From NCBI RefSeq assembly GCF_020520425.1, contig NC_079490.1:6324001-6388000 (forward strand): a stretch of 64,000 nt of DNA, given 5' to 3'. Origin of the DNA: Spinacia oleracea (taxonomy: Eukaryota > Streptophyta > Magnoliopsida > Caryophyllales > Amaranthaceae). A program made the translations under genes and the position numbers. Within the stretch, counting starts at the first letter, position 1; the number at the start of each line of letters is the position of its first letter. Of this stretch, positions 1 to 60,077 are shown one piece after another. Below the pieces are notes generated by a model. That model made no database searches. It was not told the DNA's origin and saw only the letters and a list, made by a program, of their open reading frames with translations.

Positions 1-1976
1 AACATATTTTGGGTAAATGCCTTCTTTGTGGCACCACTTTTGATGATTATTCTTCACGCTGTCGTTGTGCATTTTGCCGGATGCTTGTATTGGTCTGCAA
101 TGATTGTAAGGTAAGGGTAATGTATAATTACAGTTCAACACCACAAGAATTTGAACCTTCTTTTACTGTTTACTCATTTGACACCCACTTTATAAGTGAA
201 CTTTAATTGAATGGTGACGTGAATTGCGGAGAATAAAAAGCCGGCGTGATGTAATTTTGTACGGTTTCCCTTACTTGGTATAGCCGTATAGAGCTGTTCT
301 CGTATGAATTATTTATGCGGTGTGGTTGGGAGTGCGTTCAATGATGTATGCCAAGTGAATCTTTGAAAATCTCTTAAATCTCACTAAAGAGTTTGAATCT
401 TTTTAGTCATTACTAATGAGCTACTGGCAGTCTGTGTGTGAAGGGCGAGGACATCTCTTGTTTTAGGATGATCTTGGGGGCCTTGTCTTTGGGGTACCAA
501 GTCTGGTAGTCCTATGATCTCTAGAGTCCCTAAGCTATCTAGGAAAAACTTCTATTCATGTAAGGAGGTTGTTTAATGACCTATAAAATCGGCTTTCAGT
601 AGGTCGTGTATACAACAGGTTTATTTTGATGCTGATGTTTATGTGATTTAAGGTGACCAGGTCTGTTGTTTGTAATACGCCAGTTGTATAGAAGTTTTGC
701 CTTGATATTTAAATTGCGCCAAACTTGAGTTTTTGCCTGATAAAAAACCTCGACAATAATTCTTATTTGGATAACCCTTATTTCCGCCTCCTTTATCCTG
801 AATAATTATTAGTCTATGGAATTATCATGTTCTGCTTTCTAGTGTTTTATTTATTTATTTGGCTTCTTGTGTCTTCAGACGGAGAGTGCCCAATATGCTT
901 GTGAATTGTGCCAGAAACATGGGAAAGTTGCCCAGTCTGTTCCACTAGTTAATGATGATTGTTCTGAAGTAATTCCAGAATGTGATATTGGAACAGCTCC
1001 GACTGAGTGCCCAACCCATCTTAGCACAAACCAGATTCAAAGTCCCTTCATCCCTGGTAAGGTTTGCACATTCAGATTTTTTACTGTCTTAATTACAGTA
1101 AAACTGACTCTTTCCAAGTTTCCGTGGTTACACAATGAAACTGGATTTGTCTAATATGAATCACTTCACACCTTGAGCTACGTTTTGTTTTCTCTGGTAT
1201 GATGCTATGAATACCACTCAATTCTGTTATATTCCTTTTTAATCTGTATAGGGCCTCTGAAGAAACTGAGGATATTGTGTCTTCACGGATTTCGTCAGAA
1301 TGCTTCCAATTTCAAAGGAAGAACTGCCGCATTGGCAAAAAAACTTAAAAGCTTAGCGGAGCTTGTTTTTGTGAATGCTCCCCACGAGTTACCATTTATA
1401 TACCAACCTCGTAAATCAGAAAAGGAGTGCATATCAAGTTCACCTCCACCTACAAAAAATTGCAGCAAAAAATTTGCGTGGTTGGTAGCTCCCGATTTCC
1501 AACAAAAGGAAGCTATTCATTGGGAAAGTATTAATTCGTCCTTTGATCCTCTTCAGTATCAGCAGCAGACTGAGGGGTTTCCCGAGTCTTTATCGTATCT
1601 GAAATCTGTCGTGTCTAACGAAGGTCCCTTTGATGGCATTTTGGGATTTTCACAGGGAGCTGCAATGGCGTCTCTTTTGTGTGCTGAAAGAAAACGCCTA
1701 AACCTAGAATTAGGTTTCAGATTTGTGATATTGTGTTCTGGATTTGCCGTTAATCTAGCAGGATACGAAAAAGGGTCCATTACTTGCCCTTCGCTTCATG
1801 TTTTTGGAAATGAGGATGGAGGTGATCGTCAAATATCATCTGGTTTCAGCAGAGATTTATCATCATATTTTGAAGAAGGATGCAGAATGATTATTGAGCA
1901 CGACTCTGGTCATATAATTCCTACAAGACCTCCTTATATTGGCGAGGTCAAAGAATTTCTTCGGCAATTCATATAA
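1..1976 (+). CDS. STR6: Rhodanese-like domain protein 6 (STR6)-like, 3' part only: Cys-rich segment plus FSH1-type serine hydrolase
   Basis: Three exons are visible: window edge to 110, 879-1056 and 1252-1976. All introns are GT-AG and the phases agree; a Gly codon is split over the last junction. The first exon encodes a Cys-rich segment (CLLCGTTFDDYSSRCRC, then CRMLVLVCNDC) like the one that follows rhodanese domains of the UPF0176/STR6 type. The rhodanese domain itself must lie before base 1. The last exon is an alpha/beta hydrolase of the FSH1/OVCA2 family: it opens with LCLHGFRQNA, has the nucleophile elbow GFSQGAAMA, a likely catalytic Asp in HVFGNEDG, and the His in HDSGHIIP near the C-terminus. 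Arabidopsis STR6 (At1g09280) has the same fusion. The hydrolase substrate is not known from sequence. The gene reads towards ICP55, as its neighbour does in Arabidopsis. Confidence 0.88.
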
Positions 1977-3008
1977 TACGCTGAATTTATTTGATATTTA
2001 GAAACTATTTACTTCTTTTTGTATGAATGTATAGAAAGCTTGATTACCCAGTAGCTCTAGGTTAGTCAAGATTCTGGACCTGGTAGAGATGTCTCAAAAT
2101 TCCTTGATATTCCAATTGTTAATGAGTTGCCGACTTAACGTACATGTTTAGTTTGATTTTACTCTTATGTTCATGAGTTTCAATTTTTTTTTTTTTTTGC
2201 TCGATTTTGGTACTTTTTGTTAGCCTTGATCTGTTCTCATATTGAGTTTGTTTTGCCTTTTGATGATGGATTACTTTTGTAGTTCTACTGTCAATTGTTC
2301 AAGGGATTAGAATGTGATATGTGTAGGTGTTTTTGTAAGCCAATGATTGAGGTGGTTTTTTTTTACGCAAAGACGAGGATACTATATTACTTATGGCTTA
2401 TGCCTAATCGAGTTTGTTACAAAAGGGGCACACATCAAAAAATTGATGCCAAAATAATTACATATGGATCAACAACACCATATGAACAACCAAAATATTA
2501 TAAAAGTATCCAAAATGTACTCCTAGCCTGCACAAGTCGCACCGTAGTCATGGACAATTTGACTATTGATTAATGAATGCACTAATCTTTCCCTTCAAAA
2601 AAAAAAAAAAACAAAAACAAACAAACCTTATGCTTCCTTCGAAATGCCTTCGTCACCTTGACCATCTGCATTGCTCATTCTTCCTTTACCTGCACTTGTG
2701 ACGGATGTTGTAACAGTTGTGGGGATAGTACCAAACAAGATATTAGTGACATAGTTCACAAAGAAAGTTGTGTAAACTGAGAAAGGTCAAATCATTTTTT
2801 GCTCAAACACAACCCTATTTCTGGATTTCCAAATATGCCAAATGGCTACAGAAAACAAAACCTTCCAATCCATATTTTGACCCACATTCAAACGCATCTA
2901 ACCCTCCCAATTTTAAAGTGAAAAATGAAACCAAATTAACCGAAGGTTTGTGTGCTAGCCTTTGGAAAATATAGTTCCAAATGATACTAGATTCCCAACA
3001 ATCCCTAA
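1977..3008. other. Intergenic, no gene recognised
   Basis: AT-rich spacer after the STR6-like stop. The first few hundred bases probably hold the 3' UTR. Poly-T at about 2187-2200 and poly-A at about 2599-2613 are the only marked features. Short open frames at 2295-2573 and 2768-2974 have no motif, no intron signals and no family I recognise, so I do not call them genes. Confidence 0.5.
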
Positions 3009-8624: not shown

Positions 8625-11600
8625 ATGACGCCATTTCTTACCAGAAGATTGTTGCAGAGAATCATAAGCAATAAAGTATGTATTTTGCGCCCCACCCCTT
8701 CTGTAATTTTACGATTTTTTTTTTTTTTCAGCTTCAATGTTCAATTCCCAGTTCCCGTATGGTTGGTTCATAGCTGAAATTGCTCAAATTCAAATCTTTC
8801 TTTTGATCACTTCATGTTCCATGATCTTCTGGGTCTATGTAGTTACTTGTTCCTGTTATATTGATTGAATTCCCCCCATTTCCTGCAGTAAAATCGTCTA
8901 CTCAATTGAAATTACATTAGTGATTGATGCAATAATTCAATTCTGTTGTTGGGAGTGTAGAAACCAGTTTTCAGTGTGCTTTGTTGTGCAAAATAATGCC
9001 TATGCAAATTTAATCATCTCTTTGCCTTCTATATTGGGTTGTTATTGCTTAATTGAACACAATTTTTCAGCTCATTTCTAGAAATCAATGTTTTCGATCA
9101 TGGAGTTTCAAGTGTTTTATATGGAAGATGCAAACTTGTTAATCTAGAAGCGGGTTATGGCATACGAATTAGGGAGTAGTTTTTGTAGAATTGGACCAAA
9201 TGGAAATTTCCTATTTTCAGATTTTGAGTCAGTGTAGACTTTTCACTGGAGAAGTGGGTTACTGATAAGCAATAAGTCATTGTATTACTATCCCTCGATT
9301 TAAGCTGTTTAGTGTTGGGTATTTTGATTTTCTAGGCAAATGGAAGCCGGACATATTGTTCAAAACAGATAATTGATGCTGGCCAGCCAACTGCTGCTTC
9401 TCACCCTGAGGTATTGCTAGCTCGAGCGAATGTGTTCCTTTTATTTCCCTTTTGTTGATTCTTAATTGTCCTGTTTGAGGAACAAAAACTAATGTTGATT
9501 ACTTTTTAATTTTTAATTTTTTAATTTTTATCGTAGTTACTGAAAGAAGGGGAGATGACTCCTGGTATAACTTGTGATGAATATATCTCCCGGCGAAAGA
9601 GATTGTTGGAGCTCCTCCCTGAGAAGAGTATTGCCATCATTGCAGCTGCCCCAGTTAAGATGATGACTGATGTTGTGCCTTACACCTATCGCCAAGATGC
9701 CGATTATTTGTATATCACTGGTTGTCAGCAACCTGGTGGTGTAGCTGTTTTGAGTCATGATATTGGTTTGTGTATGTTCATGCCTGAGCCAACACTTCAG
9801 GTATGTACAACAGAATCCAACACGTAATCTAGTAATAGCTGCAATCCCAGTCAAAAGAATGGGAAGTGAGTTCTTATAGTGGATTTTCCTTGGTATGATA
9901 AAGGAAAGGTGTAGTCATTATTCTGTTGTGTACTTCTGCTCCATTTATTTCATTTCCTTGTGAAAACATTATTCCATTTGATCCTAGGATATCACTTGGG
10001 AAGGGAATACCGCTGGCATAAATGAGGCAATTGAGATTTTCAAGGCTGATCAAGCAATACCTATGAGCAAACTTCGCCAGGTACTTTGTCAAAGTTTTTC
10101 TGTGGCACTTACCTGAATTCTTTTTCTGCTGCCCATCTCCATTAGCAGAGGTGTGGATGAAAACTTCCTCTCTTCCCTCCAATTTTTTTTTTGGGTATTG
10201 TATTAGGAGATGTTGAAGGGGGGCACTAGGATTGGATGACTTGTATGTTTGACATGTTTCTTATTGTATTAAATTAATAGGAGAAGCTAGAGATACATAA
10301 ATCGAAGGCAATACACATGTAGCTTAAAAAAGTTTCAACATTGGTTCCTTATTGCTGTAGTTTTGGTGTAACTTTCATGTATAGACCCTTTGTTTATAAC
10401 CACTTACAATGCAGGTGCTATCAGGCCTTTTAGAAAGATCTTCTGAAGTATTCCATAATGTGAAGACTGCTACAAAAACCTACGTAGACTTCGAATCCTT
10501 TCAAAAGATATCTAATGAAAAGAAAGTGAAAGATCTTTCTAAATACACTCATGAGTTGCGTTGGCTCAAATCACCAGCTGAAACTGAGCTGATGAGAAAG
10601 GCTGCTTCAATCGCTTGTCAGGTAATTTCTCTTTTACTGGCAAGTGTTTAAGGGTGGACATTGTTTTGTAGAAGTGGCACTATATGCTGCCGCTTGTGAA
10701 ACGGCATGGTTTCCATTTGGCTTTGCTATCATGTCTTACTTAGATTTATGGTAGGTATGGTTCTCAAAATTCTGGATTGCTTGAGAAGATACAAAGAAGT
10801 TTATTATCGAGGCCAAGCTTCTCTAATTCATGTCATGTTGATTTTTATCTTTCCACTATGTTTCTTAATTGTAATTTTTTAGCTTTCAATCAAATTATTG
10901 AGACTATATTTCAAAAATCAGTAATCATGCCTTTTACCATGGCAATGATGAATGATGTGACTATCTTTGTTGGATGTCCGAAATCAATTGCCATTTTTGT
11001 TTCATACATAGGCTCAGTTGCAGACCATGTTCCATTCAAAGACATATCCACATGAAGGTATGATGGCAGCTAAGGTGGAATATGAATGCAAAATGAGAGG
11101 TGCTCAAAGAATGGCGTAAGCTTTTTTCCCCTCCTTTGAAAACATTCTCCGGCATTGTATGTTTTTTGACGAAATGTTCTAACTTCTCTCTCCCCCCCTC
11201 CCCCCAATGGTAAAAAGAATATTTAATAAGAAGTTTGATTTTTGGTGACACTAGCAAAAGACAAAGTCCGTCAAAAATTTTCAATTACCCCTTATTTTGT
11301 AATAGGTGCGGGTACATATCTAAGCGTCCAATACATCAAGCCTGATTATTCAAGACATGGGTGTATGACATAAATAAACATACTTGTTTTTATATGACTG
11401 TTTTTGTTATAATCTGCCTAATTAGTTTGTCTCTACGACCGACCCAACACAGGGTCTCCTCTTACGTAATCAGTTTTCCTCAAGATTTATAAAACTTCCT
11501 CTCTTAGTGGACCACATAAATCTATGTGTTCTTTATTTGTTATTCTCAGTTAATCTTTCCTGCATCAGTTATAATATTATGCTTCTAATGAGTTAATCTT

Positions 11601-14600
11601 TCTTGCACCCATTATAGCAATTTTACACATGAGCTCTAATTTACAGATACTTATGCACACATTTAGGCTGGCTTGATTGTCAATTCTTGTTGAAGGGCTC
11701 ATCTGAAGCCATTTCTGAGCACATATAGGATATATTCTTCTTTCCTTTCCTTTCCTTTTCCTAATTTTTTTTCCTTCTACGGTCATGGGGTTCAAGGTAG
11801 TTGAAGGGTCGGGGTGAGCATTGATGTGTCGGGTATGGATTCCATACCCTTGTGCCTTCTTAGAATGTAATGTCAAGTGTCTGACACGGGTATGGAAGAC
11901 ATAGTGAAGAGTCGAAGGAAACATAGCTCATCACACCATTACCTTTTTTTTAATATCCATAGGAAGAGATGGTTTATTTAGAGAAGTTGTTTTAATTAGA
12001 GTGTACTGTGTTAAGTATTTTTACAAACTTTCCTGCATTGAATTTTGGCCCTCAGTTATATTGACTGCAGAGTATTGATTGAGGAGTTATATTTTTGTTT
12101 ACTGTTACTAGATTCAACCCTGTCGTGGGTGGTGGTCCTAATGGAAGCGTGGTACATTATTCTCGAAATGATCGTAAAGTGAGTTCATCTTAGCATTTAT
12201 CCTTTTATAGGTATGCGTATATGCATTCTATGACGCTATATAACTTTTCTGCAGGTTAGTGATGGGGAGCTTGTGCTGATGGATATTGGATGTGAGTTCC
12301 ATGGTTACCTTAGTGATATGACTCGTACATGGCCTCCATTTGGTAGATTTTTACCTGCTCATGTATGTAAACTGTTTCATCACGATTTCTCAGAGGCTCG
12401 TTTTCAAAGTCTTCTCCATCCCGTTTATGGATAAAAAGCTACCACTCTACCAGTATGTCTGTGGTTCTTAGACCAATCATGTCGAGATTAGGTGTTAGCC
12501 TGTTAGGCAATAAATGTTGCAAAGTAAGAGCAGCACTGGAGTGGTTGACTCAACTAGTATGTGGGACAATGGGTCTTTCGAGGCTTCTATTTTAAGATAA
12601 TGCAATCTTTCAACCAGAAGATTACTAGATATTTTGGTATCATAGAGTCGTATTTTGTTCTAAATCTTATTCAATGTACATCTTTCTGCTCATGGTTTCT
12701 TATTTACCTTGTTTCTGGTTCCACAATGGTGACATAGAAGCCTGTAATGTAATTCTATTTTGAAATTGTTTTCTCAAATGTATTGCTGTAATCCAAGATG
12801 ATGTGTACTTCTCACATGATTACAGGCTGAGCTTTACGATCTTATTTTGGAGACGAACAAAGAATGTATAAAGCTCTGCAAACCTGGCATAAGCATACGG
12901 CAAATACACGAGTGCTCGGTATGTTGTATTGCGGTGTTTATTTTTTTACTTGCCTGCACTTTCAGTTCATATGTTCATGTGTTTGGTAACTTTTGGATTC
13001 TTAGCTATGGTTGTCAGATTTGATGCTCACAAGCACGGTCAAAACTAACAATAACCTTTTTCTTTTGGTGGAGGAGGGATCATGAGAAATATGGAGTTTA
13101 TTTTATTCATTCTAATACTATACGTCGTATTTGCAAATGCTCACAAGAGGAGTAGTTTTTTGGTAGTTACTCTATATTCGTTGTCAATTGATCTACTTGT
13201 TTAACCTAATAAAGATCCATCTTTATTCTCAAGTCACAAGGTAGCAGTCATAAAGAACATCAAAAGCGTATATGCTTTAGATGGGGTGTTACCCTGGTTT
13301 ACACCCATGCTCCTAGTCCTATCACATCCAAAAGACAACTTTGTAGAATCTCAATTCCTATAATCAAATATGTGTCTTTGTTTCTATGTTGGAGTGGTTA
13401 AAAATAACTGTCTACAATCTACTTTTTCTGTAAAAGAAACTTTCTACTTTAAGTTAGTCTTGCTAATGTTTATGGAGGGCTTCTTCAAATCCACCACAAT
13501 TATTACATATATTTCCGTGAGAAAAGAGTATGATTTCTTCGTATAAATACTTTGATGGTAATTTATTTTTTATAATAGGATTTCTTCTGCAAGTATATAA
13601 GTGGTCACTTATCTCTTTGATTTCTTTCCTAGTAGAATAGTTGAATGTATGCTTTTACTATGAGTTTCACCTGTTGACCTGGTAATGCTACATTTTGATG
13701 TATATTAAATTATTAATTATTTCTATGGTTAATATAATTGTAGATTCAGAGGCTCTTCAATGGACTGCGAGAAATAGGAATACTGAAAAATAAACCGAGC
13801 AGTTACAAGACATACCATCAGCTGAATCCGACTAATATAGGTGTCTCTGTTTACTTCCTGTTTCTTATTAGATGAAGTTGATTGCGAATTTTGGAAACAT
13901 TTTGGGCAGATATATTTTGTCTAGCTAGTGTTGATACGTGTTCCACACTTGAACTTCCTATCTGGCTTCTTATCACATGCTTCTGATCTGCAGGACACTA
14001 TCTAGGGATGGATGTACATGATTGTTCTACGATCAGCACTGACCGCGCTCTGCAACCAGGGGCTGTAAGTTGTCGACTAATTTTCTCCATCTTGATTTCT
14101 TTTCTTTCTTTGTTTTTCCTCTCTCCCCAGCACATAACTAACAAGAAACCTTACGTAATTCACGTATGTATTTTTCTCTCCAGGTTATAACAATTGAGCC
14201 AGGTGTATATATTCCATCTACCTTCAATGTTCCAGAGAGGTATTCCCTCCAATCCTTATTAGTTTTCTTATTCTGTATTATTTGTCATGTTAAAATAACA
14301 ATCAAATCCTAATTGACACTTATAAAAAAAATAGCACTAGTTGGTAGTTCTCAGTTATATGTCCTTAATCTATGTGCATGACCATAAAATTCATTTATTA
14401 AGGAATGGGTTGAGTATTATGTTGCATCTGTTTCACCATGAATTTTCTTGAATTCATACTTTTATAAATGAATGTTGGTGATAAATGAGGCAGTCAATGA
14501 AATGGTTGTTGCTTGTTGCAATGTCGTCTGGATTTACTGGATTTACTGTGGTTGAATCTCTAGTATATAAATGAAAAGGTGAGGTTATTTTGGTAAATCG

Positions 14601-17600
14601 ACTTTTGGTGTCCCTTTGGATTACTAAAATACCCTCCACCCTTATAGAATAGAGAATATAATGACAACCCAAAGAAGCATCTTAATCAATCTTAGCCCCT
14701 TGAATAAATTCTTACCATTTTAATCAATCTGTTTATATGTGTTCGGCTCTATCTAACTTATACGTTTCTTATATTCGCACGCATCACATTTATATTATAT
14801 TCTTTACATGTTATTTCAAGTTTATATGTAATAACACAAATTTGTTCTTATATTCGCACGCATCGCGTGCATATAAGACTAGTCATTATATAGGCGAGGT
14901 TTGAAGTAAGAGAAAACTACCGGTTTGTATGTGGTTTCCATGAATTAATTCATTCTTAAGCTGTAAGATGCGTATCCATATTTACTAGTGGGTTGGGCCG
15001 TAAACTTGTGGGTTGGGCTATGGGCGGGCAAAGCATGAGGCTTGGCCCAGCGCCATCTTTAGTCAATAGTGTCTTGTAAGGGTACTATAAGTTTTCCATC
15101 TCAAAAGGAGCCCTTTGGAGATTGAGCTTCTAGAAGATCTGTTTACAAGATTGTTACAATTCATCACTTCTCATGTGTGATTGTGTGATTGTGTGAAGCT
15201 GTGAACCTTAATACCAGTAAATGGAAATTCTTGGCAGTGTTTGCATAAACTAAATGTTCAAAAGCTATTCTTTATCTTGACTGAACTCGTGCTCTCATGC
15301 ATGTATTCGGTATTCCTGCCAAGGCCAAGGTTGTGACTAACTGGTTCTATATTATGCAGGTATCAAGGTGTTGGGATAAGGATTGAAGATGAAGTCCTTA
15401 TAACAGACAATGGTTACGAGGTATAACTTCAACCAGTCCAAAATTTTGCCGTAACTGCTATAAGGTGTAGTTATAGGTCAACTTCTGTCCTTAAGAATCA
15501 TTAGAAAAAACAACTGACATCCCCTGGAAGAAAAAAAAGAGTCCAGGAAACATAATTTGATGTCCAAATATCTACTAGCCACACATTCTCTAAGGCTCTG
15601 TTCATTTCAAAGGAAAATAATTTTCAAGGGAACACCATGGGAAAATAGTTTTCCTTTGTTTGTTTCTTTACAAGAGAGAAAGAAAATAGAAGAGGAAAGG
15701 AGCTATGGATAGGAGGAGAGGGAAAACAAGGGTAAGGGAGGAAGGAAAACGTGGTATTCCTTCTTTTCTAAAAGAAAAATGTTTTCCATCCTTAACAAAA
15801 TAAAATAACAAATAAAGGAAAATGCATTTTTCGGGAAAGTGTTTTCCGTCAAAACAAACGGAGCCTAACAGATTAAGATCAACGTTTTCCTGCCTGAAAT
15901 AAGAGCCATTTTTATCAGATACAATTAGAAGATGATCTAAGTAATATGAAGCGACATAGTTACTTCGTTCATTCTTGGAATTTCTCACTTTCCTCTTTGG
16001 GTTGTCCCAAATTTTTCTTCGCACTTCTGTTTCCGGTTATACATTACTTTACTCTCTCCATAACACCAATCCTTTTTCTATCTCGGTTGCAATAGGTCCT
16101 CTTACTTTTTAAACTCTATTTGCTTGGTTTTTTTCGTTCTGTTTGACTACTCTTAGGCTCCGTTTGTTTTGATGGAAAACACTTTTCCGGAAAACGGTTT
16201 TCCTGTGTTTGTTTTGTTAAGGCTAGAAACCAATTTCCCCAAACGTGGAAAACAACTTTTCTTATTGGAAAACCAACCTTCCTTTTGAGAAAAAGGAATG
16301 CCACATTTTCCTCTCTTAATGCCTTACATTTCCTTTTATCTCCTTCTATTTATCTCTCTTTCCACTTCTATGTTCTTTTTCTCTACAACTTTTCTTGTAA
16401 GGAAACAAACAAAGGAAAATTATTTTCCCTTGATGTTTTTCCTTGAAAATCATTTTCCATGGAAAATCATTTTCCTTTGAACATATTTTCCATTGATACA
16501 AACAGAGCCTTAATCTCCGTGCCAGAGTCACGTGAGAAGAAATTTCGGGGATGAAGGGATTGATTGAGAAAATTATTCCTATTGTATAGTGTAGCCTCTC
16601 CTGTTGTTTTTGTTATAAATGAAGGACCCTTTTGGCTTGAATGTTGATTTGTATGACAATTTGATGTTGGAATAATGAGAAGAAATAAATGAAGAAATTA
16701 AACAATACACAAGGATTTAAGGTGGTTCACTCTTCAATGAGCTACATCCACCATGGGGGAGGGTTTGGAGCTTGTATTACTCTTCAATGGAGAAAGGATT
16801 ACAAAGAGGAATTTTCAAAGATGAAGAAGAGAGAATTCTATGTATGCTTAGACCTAGGGTTTCAACCTCACTTGTGTTTCTCCCTCTTCAATCTGAAAAT
16901 CTCATTACATTTGATATCTTTAGTGTTAGACATCAAAACAATCTAAGGGACAAGAAAATGCCACGTCGATTGAACCTTGCGGAGAGGAAAACAATTCACC
17001 CGCAGGGTTCGGTCGAACCTATAGCAGGTCCGGCCGAACCAAGGTCAAGTTTGGCCGAACCAACCAATGTTCGGCCGAACCTCAAGAATCTCCAAGCTAT
17101 TGATTCTTTTCTTGTTTGAACCATCAAAGCGTTCGGGCGACCTTCCAACAGGTTTGGCCGAACCTCAAACATGTTCGGTCGAAGCTCCAAAATCTCCAAG
17201 CTACTGACTCTTTTCATGTTCGGTCGAACCATCAAAGGGTTTGGTCGGTTCTTCCACTATAACAACCTAACATTCTTCAAGGAGGATTCGAGGCACCCAT
17301 AACAATTTTAGTAGTAGAGCTAAGGTTGTGTACTTGTGAACATTTCCAGACCCTGCCCTAACGGGGATTAGTATTGTCTTGTTGTGACATTCCATCTAAA
17401 TATCGATTATGATTTATGACCTTGTTGATCGATCTCTTGTTGGATGCATCAGATCTAACCACGGCTTTGAGTATCTTTTGGTCTTGTTTAATAATTCACA
17501 GAATTTACTGTAATCATTCTGCTAATGCTTCTTCTGATCTTGGAAAACAGGTCCTTACTGGGTCGATGCCTAAAGAAATAAATCACATCGAGTCCATGCT

Positions 17601-19891: not shown

Positions 19892-19893
19892 TA

Positions 19894-23649: not shown

Positions 23650-24243
23650 ATGTCTCAAATTACCGACGAAATCCGGGCCAAGGCGACGGAGCTATACTAC
23701 GGGAACGACGTATGCCTGGCCCAATCAAAGAGGCTCTTAAGAGAAGTGGGCCTGCCCAATGGGCTTCTCCCACTCCAAGACGTGGTCGAATGCGGGTACA
23801 TCGAGGAAACGGGTTTTGTATGGCTAAAACACAAGAAGGAGATCAAGCACAAATTCGAGAAGATTGGGAAGCTTGTAAGTTACGCATCTGAGGTCACTGC
23901 TTACGTCGAGCCTTGTAAGATAAAGAAGCTTACCGGTGTTAAGGCGAAGGAGTTGTTTTTGTGGGTGACGATTTCGGAAATCACTGTCGAAAGCCCCGAA
24001 AGTGCGAAGATCGTGTTTAGGAATCCTACGGGGATTTCGAAGGTGTTTCCGACGGAGGCGTTTGTTGTTGAGGAGGCGGAGGCGGTTACTAAGGTGTTGA
24101 GGAAGGACGCCGGAGAGAAGAAGGAGGAGGTTAAGGTTGATGATGCTGTCGTTGGTGGTGGTGGTGGTGGTGATGTTGCGAGTGTGAAGAGTGTCAATGG
24201 GGTTGAGGCGGGAGTGGCGAATTTGGCTATTAAGGATGTGTAG
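23650..24243 (+). CDS. DUF538 family protein (At1g09310/SVB type)
   Basis: A single-exon gene of 197 codons. The body (residues 1-135) follows DUF538: it opens with a TDEIRAKATELYYGND stretch, then LPNGLLPLQDVVECGY, an FVWLKHKK motif, KLVSYASEVTAYVE and KKLTGVKAKELFLWV. The C-terminal 60 residues are low complexity, with acidic/Lys stretches and a run of six Gly near residue 165. It has no signal peptide, which matches the At1g09310/SVB branch rather than the secreted DUF538 proteins. DUF538 proteins are linked to trichome size and stress responses, but the biochemical role is not settled. It lies between ICP55 and the Agenet gene, the place At1g09310 holds in Arabidopsis. The start is set by the TATA box and leader; no upstream in-frame Met is needed. 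Confidence 0.92.
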   Translation: MSQITDEIRAKATELYYGNDVCLAQSKRLLREVGLPNGLLPLQDVVECGYIEETGFVWLKHKKEIKHKFEKIGKLVSYASEVTAYVEPCKIKKLTGVKAKELFLWVTISEITVESPESAKIVFRNPTGISKVFPTEAFVVEEAEAVTKVLRKDAGEKKEEVKVDDAVVGGGGGGDVASVKSVNGVEAGVANLAIKDV

Positions 24244-39779: not shown

Positions 39780-39986
39780 TAGTATTAGACTATTAGTCAC
39801 ACATCCAAACTTATAATGGTTGGAAGATCCAGAATTAGCCTGACCCTTAAAAATAACATCTTGGAAGTTAAACGGTAAATTTAATTTGGCGGGACACTTT
39901 TACCGCGACAATAAGTTTGAATATTTATTAGTTGAAGTCTTACACCAGAACACAAACACACAGTTCTCAACCAGCTGCAAACACCC

Positions 39987-42002
39987 ATGAACATGGCAAG
40001 GCAAAACCTGCCTTTCGCCATTAAATCTGCATTAAAAACCACAATCAACTCCTTAATTTTAGAAACCCATTTGTCCAATTGCCAAAATTTGTTCCAATTC
40101 AATGAAATCCTTTGTCAAACAATCTCCACCGGCCTTATAAAAGACACTTACGCCGCGAGCAGAATCCTTCAATTTTCGGCAAGTTTGTCGTTCGCTAATC
40201 TTGATTACTCTCGCCGAATATTTGATCAGCTTGAGAATTCAAATGGGTTTATCTGGAATACCATGACGAAGGCTTATTTAGTCAGGAATTTGAATCAGAA
40301 TGTCATCACTTTGTATAAAAGCATGCGATACTGTAATATTAGTCCTGATAGTTATACTTATCCTATTCTGATTCAAGCTTGCTCTATTCGGTTTCCAGAA
40401 TTAGGAGGGAACGCGATTCATGGGCATGTATGGAAGATGGGTTTTGATTCTGACATCTATGTGAGGAACACACTGATCAAGATGTATGCTGTTTGTGGCT
40501 CTATGAGAGATGCACGCCAAGTGTTTGATGAAAGTCCTGAGTTAGATTCAGTTTCATGGAACTCAATTCTAGCAGGGTACATTCAGAGTGAAGATTTAGA
40601 AGCAGCCAAAGAGCTGTATGATCTGATGCCGAAAAGGGATATATTTACAGCAAATTCAATGATTGTTTTGTTTGGTAAATTGGGTCATGTAGCTGAAGCA
40701 CGCCAATTATTTGATGAAATGAGAGAGAGGGATAAGGTTTCATGGAGTTCTCTGATCTCGTGTTACGAGAAAAACGAGTTTTATCAAGAAGCTCTATCTC
40801 TGTTCAAGGAAATGGTGACTAATGGAGTTCTAATGGATGGGGTTGTTCTTTTAAGTAGCATTTCTGTATGTTCCAACTTGTATGATCTTCATTCAGGAAG
40901 AATGATTCATGGGTTAGCTATCAAAATCGGGGCTGATTCTTATGTAAACTTACAGAATGTCTGCATTCACTTATATGCTCGATGTGGGGATATAATGGCT
41001 GCTGAGAAGCTGTTTCAAAGCAGCCAGAAGTTGGATCAGGTATCCTGGAACTCGATGTTATCTGGGTACATGAAGTGTGGGATTCTGGAAAAAGCTCAAT
41101 CATTGTTTAACATCATTCCAATGAAAGATGTAGTTTCATGGAGTTCAATGATATCTGGGTATGCTCAACATAACCAGTTTTCTGAGACCTTGAAATTGTT
41201 CCAACAAATGCAACAAGAAGGGAAAATTAACCCTGATGAAGCGGTGTTAGCTAGTGTTGCTTCAGCCTGCACCAACTTAGCTGCACTTGATCAAGGAAAG
41301 TGGATTCATTCTTACATGAGAAAAAATGGGATAGAAATTAGTGACATTCTTGGTACTGCTTTGATAGACATGTACATGAAATGTGGATGTGTTGAAAATG
41401 CAGTAGAAGTGTTTCATGAAATGGATGACAGAGTGGTTTCTGTTTCTGTTTCTACTTGGAATGCTATCATTCTTGGTTTAGCCATGAATGGATTTGCTGA
41501 TAAAGCACTCGGGTTTTTCTCAGAGATGATAAACTATGGTGTGATTCCGAATGAGATAACTTTTACAGGAGTTCTTGGAGCTTGTCGCCATATGGGATTA
41601 GTTGATGATGGGCAACACCATTTCAGGTCCATGGTTAGAGATCACGGTATAGAACCGAATGTGAAGCACTATGGATGCATGGTGGATCTTCTTGGACGGG
41701 CGGGTTTTCTCAAAGAAGCAGAGGAACTTATAGTGAATATGCCAATGGAACCTGAAATGACCACTTGGGGTGCACTTCTTGGTGCTTGTAAGAAACACGG
41801 TGATAACGTTATGGGAGAACGGGTTGGAAGGAAGCTTGTTGAGCTGCATCCTGAGAATGAGGGGGTTCGTGTAATGTTGTCTAATATCTGTGCTTCGAAA
41901 GGTGATTGGGGTGATGTACTTGAGATCTGGCAAAAAATGGGAATGTATGGAACAGATAAAGCTCCAGGATGGAGTTTAATTCAAGGCAATGGATATTCTT
42001 GA
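39987..42002 (+). CDS. Pentatricopeptide repeat (PPR) protein, PLS class with E motif
   Basis: An intronless gene of 671 codons. After a short N-terminal leader (MNMARQNLPFAIKSALKTT) come tandem PPR motifs from about residue 75 to 570; typical motif ends are VSWNSILAGYIQSEDLEAA, VSWSSLISCYEKNEF, VSWNSMLSGYMKCGILEKA and VVSWSSMISGYAQHNQ. The C-terminus (PEMTTWGALLGACKKHGD and on) is an E motif; it stops after PGWSLIQGNG, with no DYW deaminase domain. Such proteins are usually imported into mitochondria or plastids and guide RNA editing or processing. The RNA target cannot be told from this reading. A second Met two codons later could also start translation. I cannot name the Arabidopsis orthologue. 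Confidence 0.9.
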   Translation: MNMARQNLPFAIKSALKTTINSLILETHLSNCQNLFQFNEILCQTISTGLIKDTYAASRILQFSASLSFANLDYSRRIFDQLENSNGFIWNTMTKAYLVRNLNQNVITLYKSMRYCNISPDSYTYPILIQACSIRFPELGGNAIHGHVWKMGFDSDIYVRNTLIKMYAVCGSMRDARQVFDESPELDSVSWNSILAGYIQSEDLEAAKELYDLMPKRDIFTANSMIVLFGKLGHVAEARQLFDEMRERDKVSWSSLISCYEKNEFYQEALSLFKEMVTNGVLMDGVVLLSSISVCSNLYDLHSGRMIHGLAIKIGADSYVNLQNVCIHLYARCGDIMAAEKLFQSSQKLDQVSWNSMLSGYMKCGILEKAQSLFNIIPMKDVVSWSSMISGYAQHNQFSETLKLFQQMQQEGKINPDEAVLASVASACTNLAALDQGKWIHSYMRKNGIEISDILGTALIDMYMKCGCVENAVEVFHEMDDRVVSVSVSTWNAIILGLAMNGFADKALGFFSEMINYGVIPNEITFTGVLGACRHMGLVDDGQHHFRSMVRDHGIEPNVKHYGCMVDLLGRAGFLKEAEELIVNMPMEPEMTTWGALLGACKKHGDNVMGERVGRKLVELHPENEGVRVMLSNICASKGDWGDVLEIWQKMGMYGTDKAPGWSLIQGNGYS

Positions 42003-47107: not shown

Positions 47108-47369
47108 TGTTATGAAATGACATGAAAACAAATAGTTTTGCAAGGAAGTTACAAGCAAATAACTATGGAAAGTTTTCTATCGGGTTTGCTCTTTTGCATT
47201 CCCCTCTATTTATAGTGCAAGTTTTACTATACTCTTATGTACTATAGTCAAATATTACAACACCTACATGTCTCCCCTATACATAGGTGAAAGAAATTCA
47301 AGAGAAGCATTAAATGAAGGAGTAGAATGTATTCAACTTTTGTGGGCATTCATACTTTGTTTCTCAACA
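47108..47369 (-). repeat. Copia 3' LTR (262 bp)
   Basis: It starts TGTTATGAAATG and ends TTTCTCAACA on the plus strand, that is TG...CA as LTRs require. It matches the other LTR over its full length outside the MITE. Confidence 0.92.
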
Positions 47370-50300
47370 CTCCCCCTTGAATGTCCACTCTTCATTGGGA
47401 TATTAGTTGCCTCATTAGAACCTTATTGGAATAAGAACCATAGTTCGGGAAGAAGAGTATAATTTCATGAGTTTATATGCCTTTGTATACTGCCTCATTA
47501 AAAACCTTGTCAGGAAAAACCCAGTGGGATAAAAACCTGATCGAAGGGAAAAAGAGTGCAGTGCATATAATACTCCCCCTCAATTTAATATAGCTCACGA
47601 AGACGACGCATTCCAATTTTATGTACCAACTGCTCAAACCTCTTTGAAGGAAGGGATTTGGTAAACAGATCAGCAAGATTGTCACACGACTGAATTTGTT
47701 GGACGTTTATCTTTCCTTCTTTCTGGAGATCGTGTGTGAAGAACAACTTTGGGGATATGTGTTTTGTTCGATCACCTTTGATGTATCCTTCAGTTACTTG
47801 TGCGATGCATGCAGTATTGTCTTCGTAGATGACAGTTGGATTTTCTGTTACCGAGTTCATTCCACATTCTTCTTGGATATTACTGATCATTGACCTGAGC
47901 CATACACATTCTCGTCTAGCTTCATAAAGAGCAATCAATTCTGCATGGTTTGATGATGTAGCAGTCAATGTTTGTTTTGTCGATTTCCAGGATATTACAG
48001 TAACTCCATAAGTGAACAAATATCCGGTTTGTGACTTGGCCTTCTGTGGATCTGATAAGTATCCAGCATCTGCATATCCAACGAGAGTAGCCTCTTTTCT
48101 TGACTGATAGAGTAGACCAAGATCTGGTTTTCCTCGTAGATAACGGAGTAAATGCCTTATTCCATTCCAATGTCTCTTTGTTGGCGAATTGCTATACCTG
48201 GCTAACAAGTTCACAGAAAAAGCAATATCGGGTCTAGTATTGTTAGCTAAATACATTAAAGCGCCAATTGCACTTAGATATGGTACTTCAGGACCAAGAA
48301 TTTCTTCATTTTCTTCTCGAGGTCTGAATGGATCATCTTTCATATTCAAAGATCGAACGATCATAGGGGAATTCATTGGATGTGATTTGTCCATGTAAAA
48401 GCGTTTTAGTACCCTTTCTGTGTAATTTGATTGATGGACAAAAATTCCCTCTTTCAAGTGCTCAATTTGTAGTCCAAGACAAAATCTGGTTTTTCCAAGA
48501 TCTTTCATCTCAAATTCTTTCATCAAGTATTTTGCAGTTTGTTCAAGTTCTCTTGGAGTTCCAATGATATTTAAATCATCCACATATACTGCAATGATAG
48601 CGAATCCTGACTGGGATCGCTTAGTGAAAACGCAGGGACTGATTTGGTTGTTTTTTAATCCTTCTTTCACAAGGTATTCACTAAGACGATTATACCACAT
48701 TCTTCCAGATTGTTTTAGCCCATAAAGTGACCTTTTCAGCTTTATGGAAAGCATTTCTTTAGGTTTGTGGTTTTCTGGTAATTTTAGTCCTTCAGGGACT
48801 TTCATATAAATGCCTGCGTCAAGTGACCCATATAAATATGCGGTCACAACGTCCATTAATCGCATTTGCAGTTCTTTCGAAACCGTCAAGCTTACCAGAA
48901 ATCTTAGTGTAGTTGCATCAACTACTGGAGAATATGTCTCCTCATAATCAATCCCTGGTATTTGAGAGAAGCCTTGGGCAACTAGCCTTGCCTTGTATCT
49001 TGTAACCTTATTGTTCTCATTCCTTTTTCTCACAAATACCCATTTGTGTCCGACAGGTTTTACACCCTTTGGTGTAGTGGATATTTTCCCAAAAACTTCT
49101 CGTTTTTCAAGGGATTTCAATTCTGCCTGAATTACCTCTTTCCATTTTGGCCAATCATGTCTGCGACGACATTCATCCACTGTTTTTGGTTCAGGGTCAT
49201 CATTATCAGATATCAATTCAATTGCAATGGAGTAAGCAAATATTTGATCTATGATAACGTTTTTTCGATTATAATGTTTCTTAGTTGAAACATAGTTCAT
49301 TGAAATTTCATCGTTATCGACTTCTTTATGATTTTCTTCCTCTTCTTTAGGAGGATCATCTTTATCAATATTTTCCTCTTCATTTGGTCTTTCATGACCT
49401 TCTTTTGGAGGATCAATGTTGATTTCATTTGTTACTCCATCATGCCTCTTTACTTTTCTTGGTTTAGAATCTTTTGAACCAAATGGCCTTCCACGTTTTC
49501 GTCGTGCCATAGACTCATTTTCGATGGCCTTATTATCAGTGGGAATTTCAATGCGTGCAGGTGCATTCTCTGCTGGAATATGTGACTTTGTCACTTTCTT
49601 TGTATCCGTGAATGCATCAGGCAATTGATTTGCAACACTTTGTAAATGAACAATTTTCTTAACTTCTTGTTCACATGAATTTGTTCGTGGATCAAATATT
49701 GATAGTTGTGTTGCGTTCCATATGATTTCAATCTCCTTTTTCCGTGGGTCCACTTTCTCTCCCCCTAAGGCTGGGAATACTGACTCATTAAAATGACAGT
49801 CAGCAAACCTTGCCTTAAATAAATCGTCAGTCATTGGCTCAAGGTATCTAATTATGGATGGGGACTCATACCCAACATAAATTCCCAGCCTTCTTTGTGG
49901 ACCCATTTTTGTGCGTTGGGGTGGAGCAATGGGAACATACACGGCACAACCAAATATTTTTAGATGTGAGACATTTGGTTCTCGACCTTATACCAACTGT
50001 AGAGGTGAGAACTCATGATAAGCTGTCGGTCTCAATCTTATTAATGCTGCCGCGTGTAAAATAGCATGGCCCCAAGTAGATGATGGTAACTTTGATTGCA
50101 TTAACAATGGTCTTGCAATCCATTGTAGCCTCTTGATCAGTGACTCAGCGAGACCATTTTGTGTATGTACATGAGCCACTGGATGTTCAACAACAATCCC
50201 AATCGACATGCAATAATCGTTAAAAGTTTGGGATGTAAATTCCCCAGCATTGTCGAGTCTTATTTTCTTTATTGTGTGGTCTGGGAATTGATTTCGTAAT

Positions 50301-53300
50301 TTGGTGATCTGGGCAAGTAGAATTGCAAATGCAACATTTCTACTTGACAAGAGACTCACATGTGACCATCGTGTTGAAGCATCGATCAATACCATAAAAT
50401 ATCTGAATGGTCCACTTGCAGGATTAATTGGCCCGCAGATGTCTCCCTGAATTCTTTCTAAAAATGATGGAGATTCAGTGGCAATTTTGTTTTTGGATGG
50501 CCTTATAATCAGTTTGCCAAGCGAGCATGCAGAGCATGTCAATTCATTTGATCGGGGTATTTTAACATTCCTTATTGAATGCCCGATTGAATTTGCTACA
50601 ATCTTGTGCATCATTCTTGTTCTAGGATGACCGAAACGGTCATGCCATAATGTAAGCAAATTTTTGTTATCAAACTTCTTGTTAGATATCATATTTATTT
50701 CAATTGGCCGTATATCCATACGATATAGCCCTGAAGAGTATGCTGGCAATTTCTCATAAATATGTTTCTTGCCACATTTTTCTGCCGTGAGGCATAAATA
50801 TTCTTTTTGATCCACTGTCATTGTTTCTAGATGATATCCATTTTGACGCACATCTTTGAAACTTAAGAGATTTCTTCGAGATTTACTCGAATATAAAGCG
50901 TCATTAATAGTCAATTTTGTTCCATTTGTGAGCACAATGCATGCTTTTCCGGATCCTTCTATTAGCTTTGCTGTCCCGGAAATTGTATTGACATTTGCTT
51001 GGTACATTGTTAGTTTTGAAAAATACTTCCTATCTTTTAAGATAGTATGTGTTGCTGCACTGTCCAGAAGACATTGGTACTTGGAATCAACTTCAGGTAG
51101 ATTCATATCTTCATAAATAAATATGCAATTAGTTTAGAGAAACGATTATAATAAAATACTTTATTCATGAAAATTAGAAATTCACAACAAGGTAATCGAA
51201 AAATACATAAAAAAAAACGATACATGACATAGTTTAGATGGGGTATTTATATGTTACTATTATCCCCAAATATCAGATCATTGCCACTGTCAAGGTTATC
51301 ATTGAAGAAATCAGATACATCAAAGCTTGGCCCTGAGGGATTTTCCTCATCTACATAATTTGCCTCAGCAACTTTTCCTTTGCCTTTTATGTAGGCTTGG
51401 TACAGATCTACCAAATGTTTTGCAGTACGACATGTTTTCCCCCAATGGCCAGTCATACCACATCTAAAACATGTGTCTTTCTCTTTTGAGGGGGTGTGCT
51501 TTTGATTTCCTTGTTGATGCCCTTTGTGATTATTATTTCTAGGGCCCAGATAACCCCTGCCACGACCACGACCACGGCCACGGTGGTTTCCGCGTCCTCT
51601 ACCGCGGTGGTTAAATCTTCCACGTCCACCTCTATGGGCAACATTTGCCTCAGGTGGGTTTGAGCTTTCAACGGCATTCGCTTCATTGAATGCCATAGAC
51701 CCAGTTGGTCTAAGATTATGGTTCTTTAACAGAAGATCATTATTCTGTTCAGCAACCAACAATAGAGAAATCAGCTCAGAATATCTCTTAAAGCCCCTCT
51801 CTCGGTATTGCTGTTGCAATAGAATATTATTCGCATGAAAGGTGGATAGGGTTTTCTCTATCATTTGATCTTCTGTGACCGCTTGATCACAGTATCTCAG
51901 CAATGATACAATTTTGAATAACGTGGAATTATATTCACTAACACATTTAAAATCCTGGAACCTCAGATTAGTCCAGTCAAATTGAGCCTTTGGCAGGAGC
52001 ACCCTTTTATGGTGTCCATATCTTTCTTTAAGACTATCCCACAACTCTTTGGGACTCTCCACCATCAGATATTCAGTTTTCAGGCTATCATGTAAATGAT
52101 GCCTTATGAGGACTGTGGCTTTGGCTTTTTCCTGCTCGGTGGCAGTTTTGATTTCTGTGGTGCCTGGAACCATTATATCTTTTATGGTATGATCCAGTCC
52201 TTGGGCCTTTAAGTTCATCTGTGCATCAACAGTCCATTCCAGAAAATTGTGCCCAGACAATTCTAGCACATTGAATTGTCTTTTCATCAAATCTCCCATT
52301 TTAACTACAATCAAATAATCATTAAACTTAGTAATCAAGATTATAATTAATTAATCATATTCATAATAATTAACTATTAAAATTTTATGTTTTCTTCTCC
52401 CCCTTAGTTTATTATTATGAATCCCACATAAATAAATCAAATAATTCATGGTAATGACGTTAATTAAAGGCGAAAAAAAATAATGATAACATTAATAATA
52501 ATATTATACATATGGTAAAAAAAATTAAAAATGCGACAAAATGCAATTAATACATCAACATGGAGAATGAAGTACTACAAAAATTATGCATTTTGTTCTT
52601 ACTTGCCGGAAATAAACAAAAAAAATGGAGATCTTCATTTGTTGAAAATTATGAAAATCATTAATGCCATAAGAAGGACTACTAAGGCCATCATTAAAAC
52701 AAAATATTGTTTTAATTTTCTTAAATCTTCCTCGAAGCTGAAGACGTGTGGAGGGTCGGGGTTGCCGGCCGGAAACATGTTTGATCGGAAAATTGGAGGA
52801 GGAAAATTTTGTGTGGTTTTGGATAAAAAGTAAGAAGGAGATAAGATGTTGTGTGGTGAAAATGGGACGGGTAATCCCCCTTTTATAGGGGATAAATCAT
52901 GATTGTATTATACAATTTGTTACAGTAAACTGGTATATTATAGTCTAAAGAGGTTAATAGTTTTATTACTTACTGCAAAAAAAAAATATCACTGTGGATT
53001 TGAAAAGAAATAATGGATATATAGAATTAAAATGGTAAAAAGATATCCCCCGGGATGCAAGCCGTAATGGTCCGAGAACCCTAGTCTGTTTAAGAGATCG
53101 TGGGTTCGAAAAACAAAAAAATAAAGATGTAGCTGAAAATAAAGGCTACATCGTTTTTACCAAAAAAATTATTTTATTTTAAGTATAGTCTAGCTATATG
53201 CATGTAGGCATGAAAAGGAATAGTATATATATATATATGTAATGATAATGCATGGCTAATATTATTATGCATGCAGGTAGTACGTAAGAGTGCATATATA

Positions 53301-53585
53301 CAACTATGCATGAATGAGAAAGAAAAAAAAAACAACCAAGTGTCATAAATGTAGTACACAAGCATATTCTCCTTTTACCAAGTTGATCATAATACCGGTA
53401 GCAATGTGAACTCTCTTTTATGATTAAAACGGGTGTTTAGAGTTTCTGATATAGAGGATCCCAAATATGGGCAACTATAGAGCATACTCCTCAAAATATT
53501 TTGTTAAGAATATATACTACATTTTATAAAAAAAAATTGAGTAACAGGTAAAAAATATACCCGAGGAAAATTGGTGCTGATAACG

Positions 53586-54177
53586 TGTTATGAAATGAGA
53601 TGAAAACAGATAGTTTTGCAAGGAAGTTACAAGCAAATAACTATGGAAAGTTTTCTACCGGGTTTGCTCTTTTGCATTCCCCTCTATTTATAGTGCAAGT
53701 TTTACTACTCCCTCCGTCCCGGAATACTTGACTTGTTTTCCTTATCGGGCCGTCCCTTAATACTTGACCTGTTTCTAAAAATGGAAATATTCTAACAATA
53801 TTAAATCATTTCTCACCCCACCCCTATTAACCCACCTACCCCCTACTCCACACAAAAAATAATTAAAAATTCAACTCCTACTCTCCCCCAACCCCACCTC
53901 TTAACCCACCTCCCACTAACTACATTAAAATAATACCCCACTATCAACTACTACCTATTAAATTAAATAAGTCAATTCAAGTCCCTTAAACTCTGTGCCG
54001 GTCAAACCGGGTCGAGTATTCCGGGACGGAGGGAGTATACTCTTAGGTACTATAGTCAAATATTGCAACACCTACATGCGTCCCCTATACATAGGTGAAA
54101 GAAATTCAAGAGAAGCATTAAATGAAGGAGTAGAATGTATTCAACTTTTGTGGGCATTCATACTTTGTTTCTGAACA
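53586..54177 (-). repeat. Copia 5' LTR, enlarged by a MITE (262 bp of LTR)
   Basis: The same 262-bp LTR as the other end, with a 328-bp Stowaway plus duplicated TA placed after GTGCAAGTTTTACTA. The MITE follows a TATTTATAG motif in plus orientation; whether it affects LTR function cannot be read from sequence. Confidence 0.9.
53708..54035. mobile_element. Stowaway MITE inserted in a copia LTR, 328 bp
   Basis: Ends CTCCCTCCGTCCCGGAATAC on both sides (perfect inverted repeats over 20 bp), flanked by TA (53706-53707, 54036-54037). The uninterrupted LTR at 47108 shows the empty site (TTTTACTATACTC), which proves the insertion and its TA duplication. Confidence 0.95.
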
Positions 54178-58100: not shown

Positions 58101-60077
58101 ATTAAAGGCTACTTCTGATCAAAGAGAAATTCCCCGAAGTTTAGCTTCAAAAGACTTTTAAGATTAAAGATACACTAGCTTGTCATAACAAATACCAGAA
58201 GATAGTCCATTGTGGTTACGAACTATCAACATCCCAGCTATAAATTAGAACATTCTGACCATCAGGTTCTCAAGATCTTCAATCCAACCAAAGAATTTAA
58301 ACTTACTTGAATCTCAAGGGGATGCCCATGGATACCCATTCGTCGATCTACCATGCAAGATCCATCAGTGACCAGAAGGGTAGGAAACATATCAAACCCA
58401 TCACTTAAACACAAATTTAGCACCAATCTAATTCCAGTCTGGACATCCGCCCTCTCTTGCAGTGAGAAATCACCAGTGAGCTTTCCATAGGCCCTCAGCA
58501 AGATAATCCACCATAATCCTACCAAAAAAATATCATAATTACGGAAAACAAATTAACTTAAATTCACGGTTGGCTAGCTTCTCACAAGTAAGCCTTTGAA
58601 CCAAATATAATTAACTTTAACAGAAGGGCTAGCCTGCAAGGTAAGAAAATAAGATTGTCTTGCCTAACGATTCTTGGTCTAAAGACTTGCGCTTTAATGA
58701 ATTTTTTTTGTATTCATAATTAATATAAGTTCTTACCAGAATCAACTGGTGCAACACGGCCAATAGCAGATTCACCAAAATCAGGATCTAAAACCTCTTC
58801 AAAGTTCCCGCTATTGTCATCAAGAGGCACATTTCTAACTTTGAAACTTGCAGGCATTAACCCTTGTCCTGGACTGTAACAGTCAACTGTTTTCTCCCAA
58901 CTCTGAGCACATGCAATGGCGAAAGCCACAAAAATAAGTACTTATAGCATTTAATAGCTAGTATACAAGGTAGATACTAGATAATGAAAAGCAAGTAAGC
59001 AAGGAATTGTACTGTGCATGAGGAAATCATAGATATTGTACATGTAAATTCTTTATTTGATTTCATACATTCTCTTTTAGATTAAATACCACAATATACT
59101 TTCTTATTCAAGATCTAAGGGGAGGACAGAGCTCCATGATCATGATTGAGATCACTAAAAAGGAAATCTATCAGAAAAAATGAACATTCACAATTCATAG
59201 GTCCCCCTTCTCTCGTTTTTCTAGAACAGATATAAGTTATTTCATTGTTCTCAGCAATCAACACGGTCTAACAAACAATAACATAAATATGCAAGGAGAA
59301 AAATGATAAAGACAAGAGAAGTTTATACATTATACACTAATTTAGAATAAGAATCAGAATCACCTGCAGATGCAAAGTATGGAGGAGGAAGTTCTTGACA
59401 ATCTCCCCTTCTCCCTTCATCAAGAAAGCGAGCGCCGAGGGGATAAAATCTCGAAGAAACACCTGATCATAATTAAGCGGTGTCTTATCGTTTGGATCAT
59501 TTGCAGCCACCGTCCCAACAGGGCTGTTGCAGTAAGTGACAACAGCATTCCGCAACAATCTCCAAGCCTCTTTCTCAATCTCAGACTCCTCTCTCTTTCG
59601 ACTTTCAACCCTGAAATCCCCTTTCTTCTCACCCTCATCAATTTTGTCAATAACTTCCCCTTTTTCCTCAATCAAATGTTCATCAATTGTAGCTGTTTTC
59701 TCAACAAATGGCTTAACATGTACCCCGCCCTTCAGATAAACACTCTCAAAATTCGATTCGTTAACCCTATGATCAACCGATGTCGAACAGTTCCTCACAT
59801 CAGGGGGGTCAAATCCAACCAAAAATCCATTTCTACCTAATCCAACCCTAGAAAAAAACCTAGATTGCCCATAAATTGGTGGATTTGAGCATGATTTTTT
59901 CTGGGTTTGATAAATATCGCCTCGAAACCCAAATAATTGAATCGGGTAGCTATGAATTTTGCGATTATGCTCGATATTCGATAAATTCCCACTTACCAAA
60001 TGTGTGCGAATTTGAGGTTGAGAAGCAATATTCGCTAGATTTCTACATTTTGAGAGGATTCTATAACAATATTTCAT
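55115..60077 (-). CDS. INVA: Alkaline/neutral invertase A, mitochondrial (GH100)
   Basis: Six exons join in phase to 652 residues: 60077-59364, 58902-58737, 58518-58307, 57361-56868, 56776-56728, 55438-55115. The protein splits sucrose into glucose and fructose at neutral pH. The N-terminus ([20 protein letters not shown]) is a basic mitochondrial presequence, and about 170 variable residues follow. The GH100 domain starts near [19 protein letters not shown] and includes [52 protein letters not shown] and [20 protein letters not shown]. Family knowledge puts the acid at Asp351 ([10 protein letters not shown]) and the base at Glu577 (WPEYYD). I chose the Met at 60077; the frame is open four codons further but without ATG. 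Arabidopsis INVA (At1g56560) is close in length and also neighbours PGN. Intron 3 holds a MITE. Confidence 0.93.
56021..56135. repeat. Three copies of a 20-bp unit in invertase intron 5
   Basis: TTGAAGGAGCTGGAGATGTT occurs at about 56021, 56054 and 56115, twice followed by AGAC. The second copy runs into a T-run, and TCTATCTACAACTATTG or similar lies near both T-runs. Slippage or local duplication around T-tracts is the likely cause. Confidence 0.75.
57759..58058. mobile_element. MITE in invertase intron 3, about 300 bp, kin of the PGN-intron MITE
   Basis: Ends CGGCCCGCTTGGTAGCCG and (reversed) CAGTCCATTTGGTAGCCG. The inner phrase CCATGGTAATGCTAGTTCAC is shared with the MITE at 45694-46022. 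The flanks (TAG and TTA) do not give a clean duplication. Confidence 0.6.

Follow-up and report, generated by a model that had tools for sequence, protein, structure and literature searches.

A seven-gene row in spinach that probably belongs to an ancestral block divided between two Arabidopsis segments

Results

The stretch of DNA analysed here, hereafter called the window, comprises 64,000 nucleotides of Spinacia oleracea (contig NC_079490.1, C4:6,324,001-6,388,000) and carries seven genes in a row, STR6-like, ICP55-like, DUF538, AGDP1-like, PPR, PGN-like and INVA-like, in which apparent counterparts of two separate Arabidopsis segments, At1g09 and At1g56, are joined in one block. The row had been listed in this order in an earlier note on the same DNA, and all seven genes, recognised by domain matches that exceed the Pfam cut-offs and by gene models, were found in the order given there. 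Open frames were examined in the window and in flanks of 100 kb taken on each side, and family searches covered the genome of 894,210,420 bases in 242 contigs; all exon models are predictions from sequence, with predicted splice sites.

The left half of the row opens with the 3' half of a plus-strand STR6-like gene at 1..1976 (exons in the window at 9-110, 879-1056 and 1252-1976; FSH1, E=4.4e-46 on 1203-1973), whose model starts about 5.4 kb to the left of the window and contains one unjoined gap. About 5 kb to the left of the window is its UPF0176_N domain, a domain for which the genome search returned two matches, and STR6 itself is presumably At1g09280. The next gene on the same strand is a partial model of an ICP55-like aminopeptidase P (9555..15426; AMP_N, E=2.7e-19), which provides the sole AMP_N match returned by the genome search and whose best solved relatives in the PDB are XPNPEP3, bacterial aminopeptidase P and Icp55; in Arabidopsis, ICP55 is At1g09300 (PMC4986872). 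The DUF538 gene, also on the plus strand, is a single open frame of 197 amino acids at 23650..24243 (PF04398, E=1.7e-33). Four tandem units of 113-115 bp lie directly 3' of it, at 24397-24853, and the identity to copy 1 is 97% for copy 2, 70% for copy 3 and 74% for copy 4. The NCBIfam search returned nothing for the DUF538 protein or the STR6 exon; with the DUF538 protein, nothing was returned from the PDB either, nor was DUF538 found in the bacterial and viral contigs searched.

The AGDP1/ADCP1-like gene lies on the minus strand, from 38438 down to 30134, and encodes two agenet pairs (PF05641), with an intron of about 7 kb and a 3' end that is not defined. Against the PDB, its protein scores 143 bits with 6ie5 and 134 bits with 6ie4, two entries titled merely "agenet domain-containing protein" whose chains we take to be AGDP1/ADCP1, and 136 bits with AGDP3 (7yt9) over the whole span. 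AGDP1/ADCP1 is At1g09320, and the Arabidopsis ADCP1 protein has three tandem agenet pairs (PMC6318295). Two were found here, hence the name AGDP1-like. A second candidate for the true AGDP1, an agenet locus on contig C3, was rejected: it scores 129 bits with AGDP3 and 107 and 94 bits with the two chains taken to be AGDP1. At about 36.0-36.5 kb, the intron of the AGDP1-like gene contains frames which, by eye, resemble reverse-transcriptase remnants.

The right half of the row begins with a plus-strand PPR gene carrying an E motif (39936..42002; PPR, PPR_2 and E_motif), to which no Arabidopsis counterpart is assigned, and continues with two genes on the minus strand. The frame of the PGN-like PPR gene (PPR_2, E_motif) appears split in the raw reading, and one intron joins the halves (exons 46798-46199 and 45430-44216) into an open predicted model of 604 amino acids. 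The INVA-like gene, from 60077 down to 55115, encodes an alpha-type alkaline/neutral (A/N) invertase (Glyco_hydro_100, E=4.2e-81), with five exon matches at C4:6379238-6383567, one of them spanning a TGA, and with two unjoined gaps in its model. PGN is At1g56570 (PMC7352785) and INVA is At1g56560 (PMC5612693); their position and the hazelnut table described below suggest that the second PPR gene is PGN and the invertase INVA. Past the invertase, the plus-strand model of a PPD1-like PsbP-domain gene (62658..66052; PsbP, E=2.4e-27) runs over the window end at 64000 and connects the row with the rest of the block on the right.

Were the window a single old block corresponding to two Arabidopsis segments, genes of both would be expected around it, and most of the predicted neighbours were found. 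To the right, AP3M, which is At1g56590 (PMC5880404), was found by the flank search at about 71.0-72.5 kb on the minus strand. To the left of STR6, the flank carries a minus-strand importin alpha gene, whose Arm_3 match at C4:6293127 is one of the four that the genome gave, the Arabidopsis gene IMPA4 being At1g09270. Beyond AP3M follow ECHIDNA (ECH, At1g09330; family match at 103.6-104.4 kb, minus strand), CRB/CSP41B (At1g09340; 108.2-111.6 kb, plus strand), which is recognised by motifs where Pfam gives the epimerase family alone, and two plus-strand galactinol synthase (GolS) genes from 116.3 and 132.0 kb, obtained by the flank search. Family matches further place a G6PD gene at 337 kb on the minus strand and a peptidase C15 gene (PCP) at 359 kb on the plus strand, the counterparts of which we take to be G6PD4 (At1g09420) and PCP (At1g56700). 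ECH, PCP and G6PD were sought after the block had been proposed, and they lie in it as one of the three, one of the two and one of the four loci, respectively, returned for 894 Mb. Altogether, At1g09 and At1g56 counterparts are interleaved from -31 kb to +359 kb relative to the window, and the block spans at least 390 kb from IMPA to PCP. SOQ1 (At1g56500) presumably carries NHL repeats, and one of the three NHL matches lies 423 kb to the left of the window, which is too distant and too weak a match to be included. Further ECHIDNA-like matches are present at C5:50.76 Mb and C3:47.16 Mb, one of them a single stretch with an internal stop, retrocopy-like.

The clustering was compared with chance for six families (DUF538, agenet, invertase, ECH, PCP and G6PD), the loci being grouped by hand; three of the six were predictions, and the failed predictions ACLA and SEC24 were left out. 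In none of 200,000 random placements did five or six families fall within 400 kb, and four did so in two placements; here 335 kb suffice for all six, and at no second place did as many as two occur together. The clustering of these families therefore exceeds chance. The order of the genes was examined with the Arabidopsis Genome Initiative (AGI) numbers as map positions, excluding SOQ1 as well as PPR and PPD1, which have no known counterpart in either segment. On the At1g09 side, the nine genes (270, 280, 300, 310, 320, 330, 340, 350 and 420) give 36 concordant pairs out of 36, and none of 200,000 shuffles was as ordered.

The lineages of hazelnut, bean and tomato are not known to share the At-alpha doubling. 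In hazelnut, a leaf-budburst quantitative trait locus on scaffold 01048 contains ten consecutive gene models: LOX1, A/N-InvA (At1g56560), PPR, PPR, PPD1 (At4g15510), ZIP4/AP3M (At1g56590), CRB (At1g09340), GolS2, GolS2 (At1g56600) and PMEI (PMC5880404, Table 5). It resembles the block described here in that INVA, two PPRs, PPD1, AP3M, CRB and two GolS genes share one locus, and differs from it in that INVA-PPR-PPR have the opposite direction relative to PPD1-GolS (PMC5880404). A PPR gene adjoins PGN both here and in hazelnut, and the best AGI match listed for the second hazelnut PPR is At1g08070, which is merely 40.7% identical (PMC5880404). In the interval of a bean colour genome-wide association study, the chromosome 1 candidates are, in order, At1g56720, At1g09430, At3g07100, At1g56700, At1g09420, At1g09390, At1g09340, At1g56590, At4g15510 and At1g56500, with unannotated entries interspersed (PMC10742591). 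The bean counterparts of PPD1, AP3M, CRB, G6PD and PCP are ordered as in the right flank here; on the other hand, the interval reaches At1g09430 (ACLA) and At3g07100 (SEC24A), and, being a candidate-gene list, it may lack genes (PMC10742591). In the case of tomato, the IMPA4 homologue is Solyc01g100720 (PMC7905647) and the mitochondrial A/N invertase is Solyc01g100810 (PMC8124378); the two are nine gene numbers apart, a spacing in rough agreement with the row of eight genes that extends here from importin alpha to the invertase.

Besides the plant studied here, the joined state thus occurs in hazelnut, in bean and, in part, in tomato, all of them lineages taken to lack At-alpha, and the presence of the same At1g09/At1g56 mixture in hazelnut and bean indicates that the joining extends beyond this genome. 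The earlier note had named a joining limited to this genome as the result that would speak against a block; the hazelnut and bean tables contradict such a limitation, though neither shows all seven genes, and among hazelnut, bean and tomato no source shows all seven together in a second species.

Discussion

The model that we propose, and which we consider very probable, is that the window makes up the left portion of an ancestral eudicot block, intact here, which was doubled at At-alpha and reciprocally thinned in Arabidopsis. The region shows one mark of At-alpha double-conserved synteny, namely an undoubled region holding the interleaved genes of both Arabidopsis segments. In the lineage of the plant studied here, without the At-alpha doubling, the block would have stayed whole, while in the Arabidopsis lineage it would have been doubled, after which different genes would have been lost from each copy. 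The copy At1g09270-At1g09420 would have retained IMPA4, STR6, ICP55, SVBL, AGDP1, ECH, CRB, GolS3 and G6PD4, and the copy At1g56560-At1g56700 would have retained INVA, PGN, SVB, AP3M, GolS2 and PCP, the pairs surviving in both copies being SVBL/SVB and, by position, GolS3/GolS2. PPD1, which is part of the block in hazelnut and bean as well as in this plant and is At4g15510 in Arabidopsis, would have departed from both segments and seems to have moved there; the PPR gene beside PGN, which has no assigned counterpart, was perhaps lost from both Arabidopsis copies. The At1g56 copy would differ from the order found here by one inversion of SVB...INVA. In this model, family and place suggest that every gene here is orthologous to its Arabidopsis counterpart, and the doubling would be that of At-alpha.

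Two pairs of genes may anchor the Arabidopsis segments to each other. SVBL (At1g09310) and SVB (At1g56580) are closest relatives (PMC9966272), retained in both segments at matching places. The genome gave 16 DUF538 matches, and the DUF538 gene of the window falls in an SVB-type group of four, whose members lie at C4:6.35, C5:56.29, C6:20.83 and C6:145.31 Mb. Within 400 kb of the paralogue of the window gene on contig C5, none of the other five families of the chance test was found, so that position favours the window gene as the anchor, whereas the sequences do not discriminate clearly. GolS3 (At1g09350) and GolS2 (At1g56600) also occupy matching places and would form, by position, a second pair, presumably derived from At-alpha; the GolS genes of the block lie beyond the window, outside the view of the earlier note. 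In the available part of the GolS paper, the Brassicaceae duplication that is named is GolS4/7, and GolS3 is given as having no orthologue in Solanaceae (PMC5751367).

Several observations weigh against the model of an intact ancestral block. The earlier note had regarded the single DUF538 gene as the anchor equal to both Arabidopsis copies, a role that stands by position, but its sequence gives no clear orthology to SVB/SVBL: in a tree built with provisional Arabidopsis sequences and with 10 of the 16 DUF538 genes of the genome, the window gene groups with SVB/SVBL with a support of 0.60, and, with the same provisional sequences, it is 55.3 and 54.5% identical to them, the C5 paralogue being slightly more identical (57.4 and 57.4%). 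The search for a third agenet pair of the AGDP1-like gene found none in 264 kb, and GolS2 and GolS3 are not called a pair in the available part of the GolS paper (PMC5751367). ACLA (At1g09430) and SEC24A (At3g07100), which had been predicted as neighbours, gave no match on this chromosome among the best candidates, which alone were scored. As regards the other species, STR6, ICP55, DUF538, AGDP1 and ECH are unlisted in the hazelnut table (PMC5880404), the tomato CSP41B/CRB gene, Solyc06g073260, is on another chromosome, and the matching Arabidopsis gene of the tomato invertase is not stated in the part of the source available (PMC8124378). Finally, the ancestral order that the earlier note supposed to be kept here agrees with the At1g09 side throughout, but INVA-PGN-SVB run opposite to the AGI order. 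The six At1g56 genes (560, 570, 580, 590, 600 and 700) give 12 concordant pairs out of 15, the other three being discordant, a result that is not significant alone (27,431 of 200,000 shuffles were as good); reversing SVB-PGN-INVA brings this side to 15 out of 15.

Which of the two orders would then be the older one? The At1g09 copy agrees with the order here (ICP55, SVBL, AGDP1, then ECH), while the At1g56 copy and hazelnut place INVA on the side away from GolS. Since DUF538 and AGDP1 are both missing from the hazelnut list between PPR and PPD1, the hazelnut rearrangement is probably distinct from that of the At1g56 copy. Counted by hand, two inversions are required if the order here is that of the ancestor, three with a hazelnut-like ancestor, and two with an At1g56-like ancestor, to which must be added that DUF538 and AGDP1 were lost, or escaped annotation, in hazelnut; this count is a reasoning from gene order alone, and draft gene models may miss genes. 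We put forward, as a tentative possibility, that the ICP55-PPD1 stretch was inverted at least twice independently, in the At1g56 copy after the doubling and in hazelnut, with reuse of the INVA/PPD1 breakpoint, the plant here and the At1g09 copy keeping the older order; the inversion of SVB...INVA would then have taken place on the Arabidopsis side. It is also conceivable, though we regard it as rather unlikely, that the block has kept its ancestral gene content but that the order ICP55-[DUF538-AGDP1-PPR-PGN-INVA]-PPD1 was derived here by inversion, the rosids keeping an older order with INVA-PGN away from GolS. Hazelnut and the At1g56 copy, as judged by AGI numbers, do share that position of INVA-PGN, which is reversed here; however, seen from ICP55, SVBL precedes AGDP1 in the At1g09 copy as it does here, the stretch between PPR and PPD1 in hazelnut has neither DUF538 nor AGDP1 listed, and the inversion count given above is no lower for either of the alternative ancestors.

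The other explanations concern the block itself. The two Arabidopsis segments could be an older pair, from At-beta or gamma, since GolS2/GolS3 are undated in the available part of the GolS paper (PMC5751367); the complementary interleaving and the retained pair suit the youngest doubling better, and SVB and SVBL are 79.9% identical (with provisional sequences, hence a lead), which makes an older pair improbable. A secondary joining of two unrelated segments in the lineage of this plant alone, which could be envisaged on the sole ground of the split in Arabidopsis, is hardly credible: the same At1g09/At1g56 mix occurs on one hazelnut scaffold and on one bean chromosome, though these tables lack the STR6-AGDP1 part, the genes are interleaved instead of being joined end to end, and the closest relatives SVBL and SVB stand one in each Arabidopsis segment (PMC9966272). 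That members of large families were misidentified and are adjacent by chance can practically be dismissed, for although PPR, DUF538, agenet and invertase genes each belong to multigene families and were assigned here by family and place, the random placements never gathered five or six of the six families within 400 kb, AMP_N and UPF0176_N have one and two matches in the genome, and the gene order on the At1g09 side is strict.

The main claim of the earlier note, that one joined block corresponds to complementary Arabidopsis halves, is therefore supported, the counterparts of both segments being interleaved here and likewise mixed in the hazelnut and bean tables, yet it is ordinary in kind; the local inversion is less ordinary. 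Reciprocal thinning is the standard outcome of At-alpha, and the block would belong to a well-known kind (PMC5891031). The double-conserved synteny modelled by POInT for At-alpha, with 7,243 ancestral loci and Cleome violacea as outgroup, is similar in that one undoubled region equals two Arabidopsis regions, each keeping part of the genes (PMC5891031); it differs in that the undoubled genome here is distant and that a single locus was followed by hand. Our literature search did not find the block described as such, the hazelnut and bean tables holding part of it implicitly, and the available parts of a paper on invertase evolution (PMC10661998) and of one on bean/soybean raffinose (PMC8309293) contain nothing on it. 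The locus illustrates, on a small scale, how genes are lost reciprocally once a genome has been doubled, with one or two anchor pairs left and one inversion; the transfer of neighbours to crops requires both Arabidopsis segments. Furthermore, it places PPD1 and the unassigned PPR gene in the old block, a position that is invisible from Arabidopsis alone.

Additional features of the window

Two long adjoining minus-strand open frames without a Pfam match occupy 25577-27004. Between PGN and INVA, a Copia-type long terminal repeat element lies on the minus strand at 47108-54177, with three open frames that match copia gag, integrase and RVT_2; the two end repeats show 8 differences over 262 shared bases. 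The end repeat at 53586-54177 contains a miniature inverted-repeat transposable element (MITE) of about 330 bp with CTCCCTCCGT ends, which we take to be of the Stowaway-like class. A truncated second copy of this MITE is present upstream of the DUF538 gene, at 21177-21467, and is 94% identical over 291 bases.

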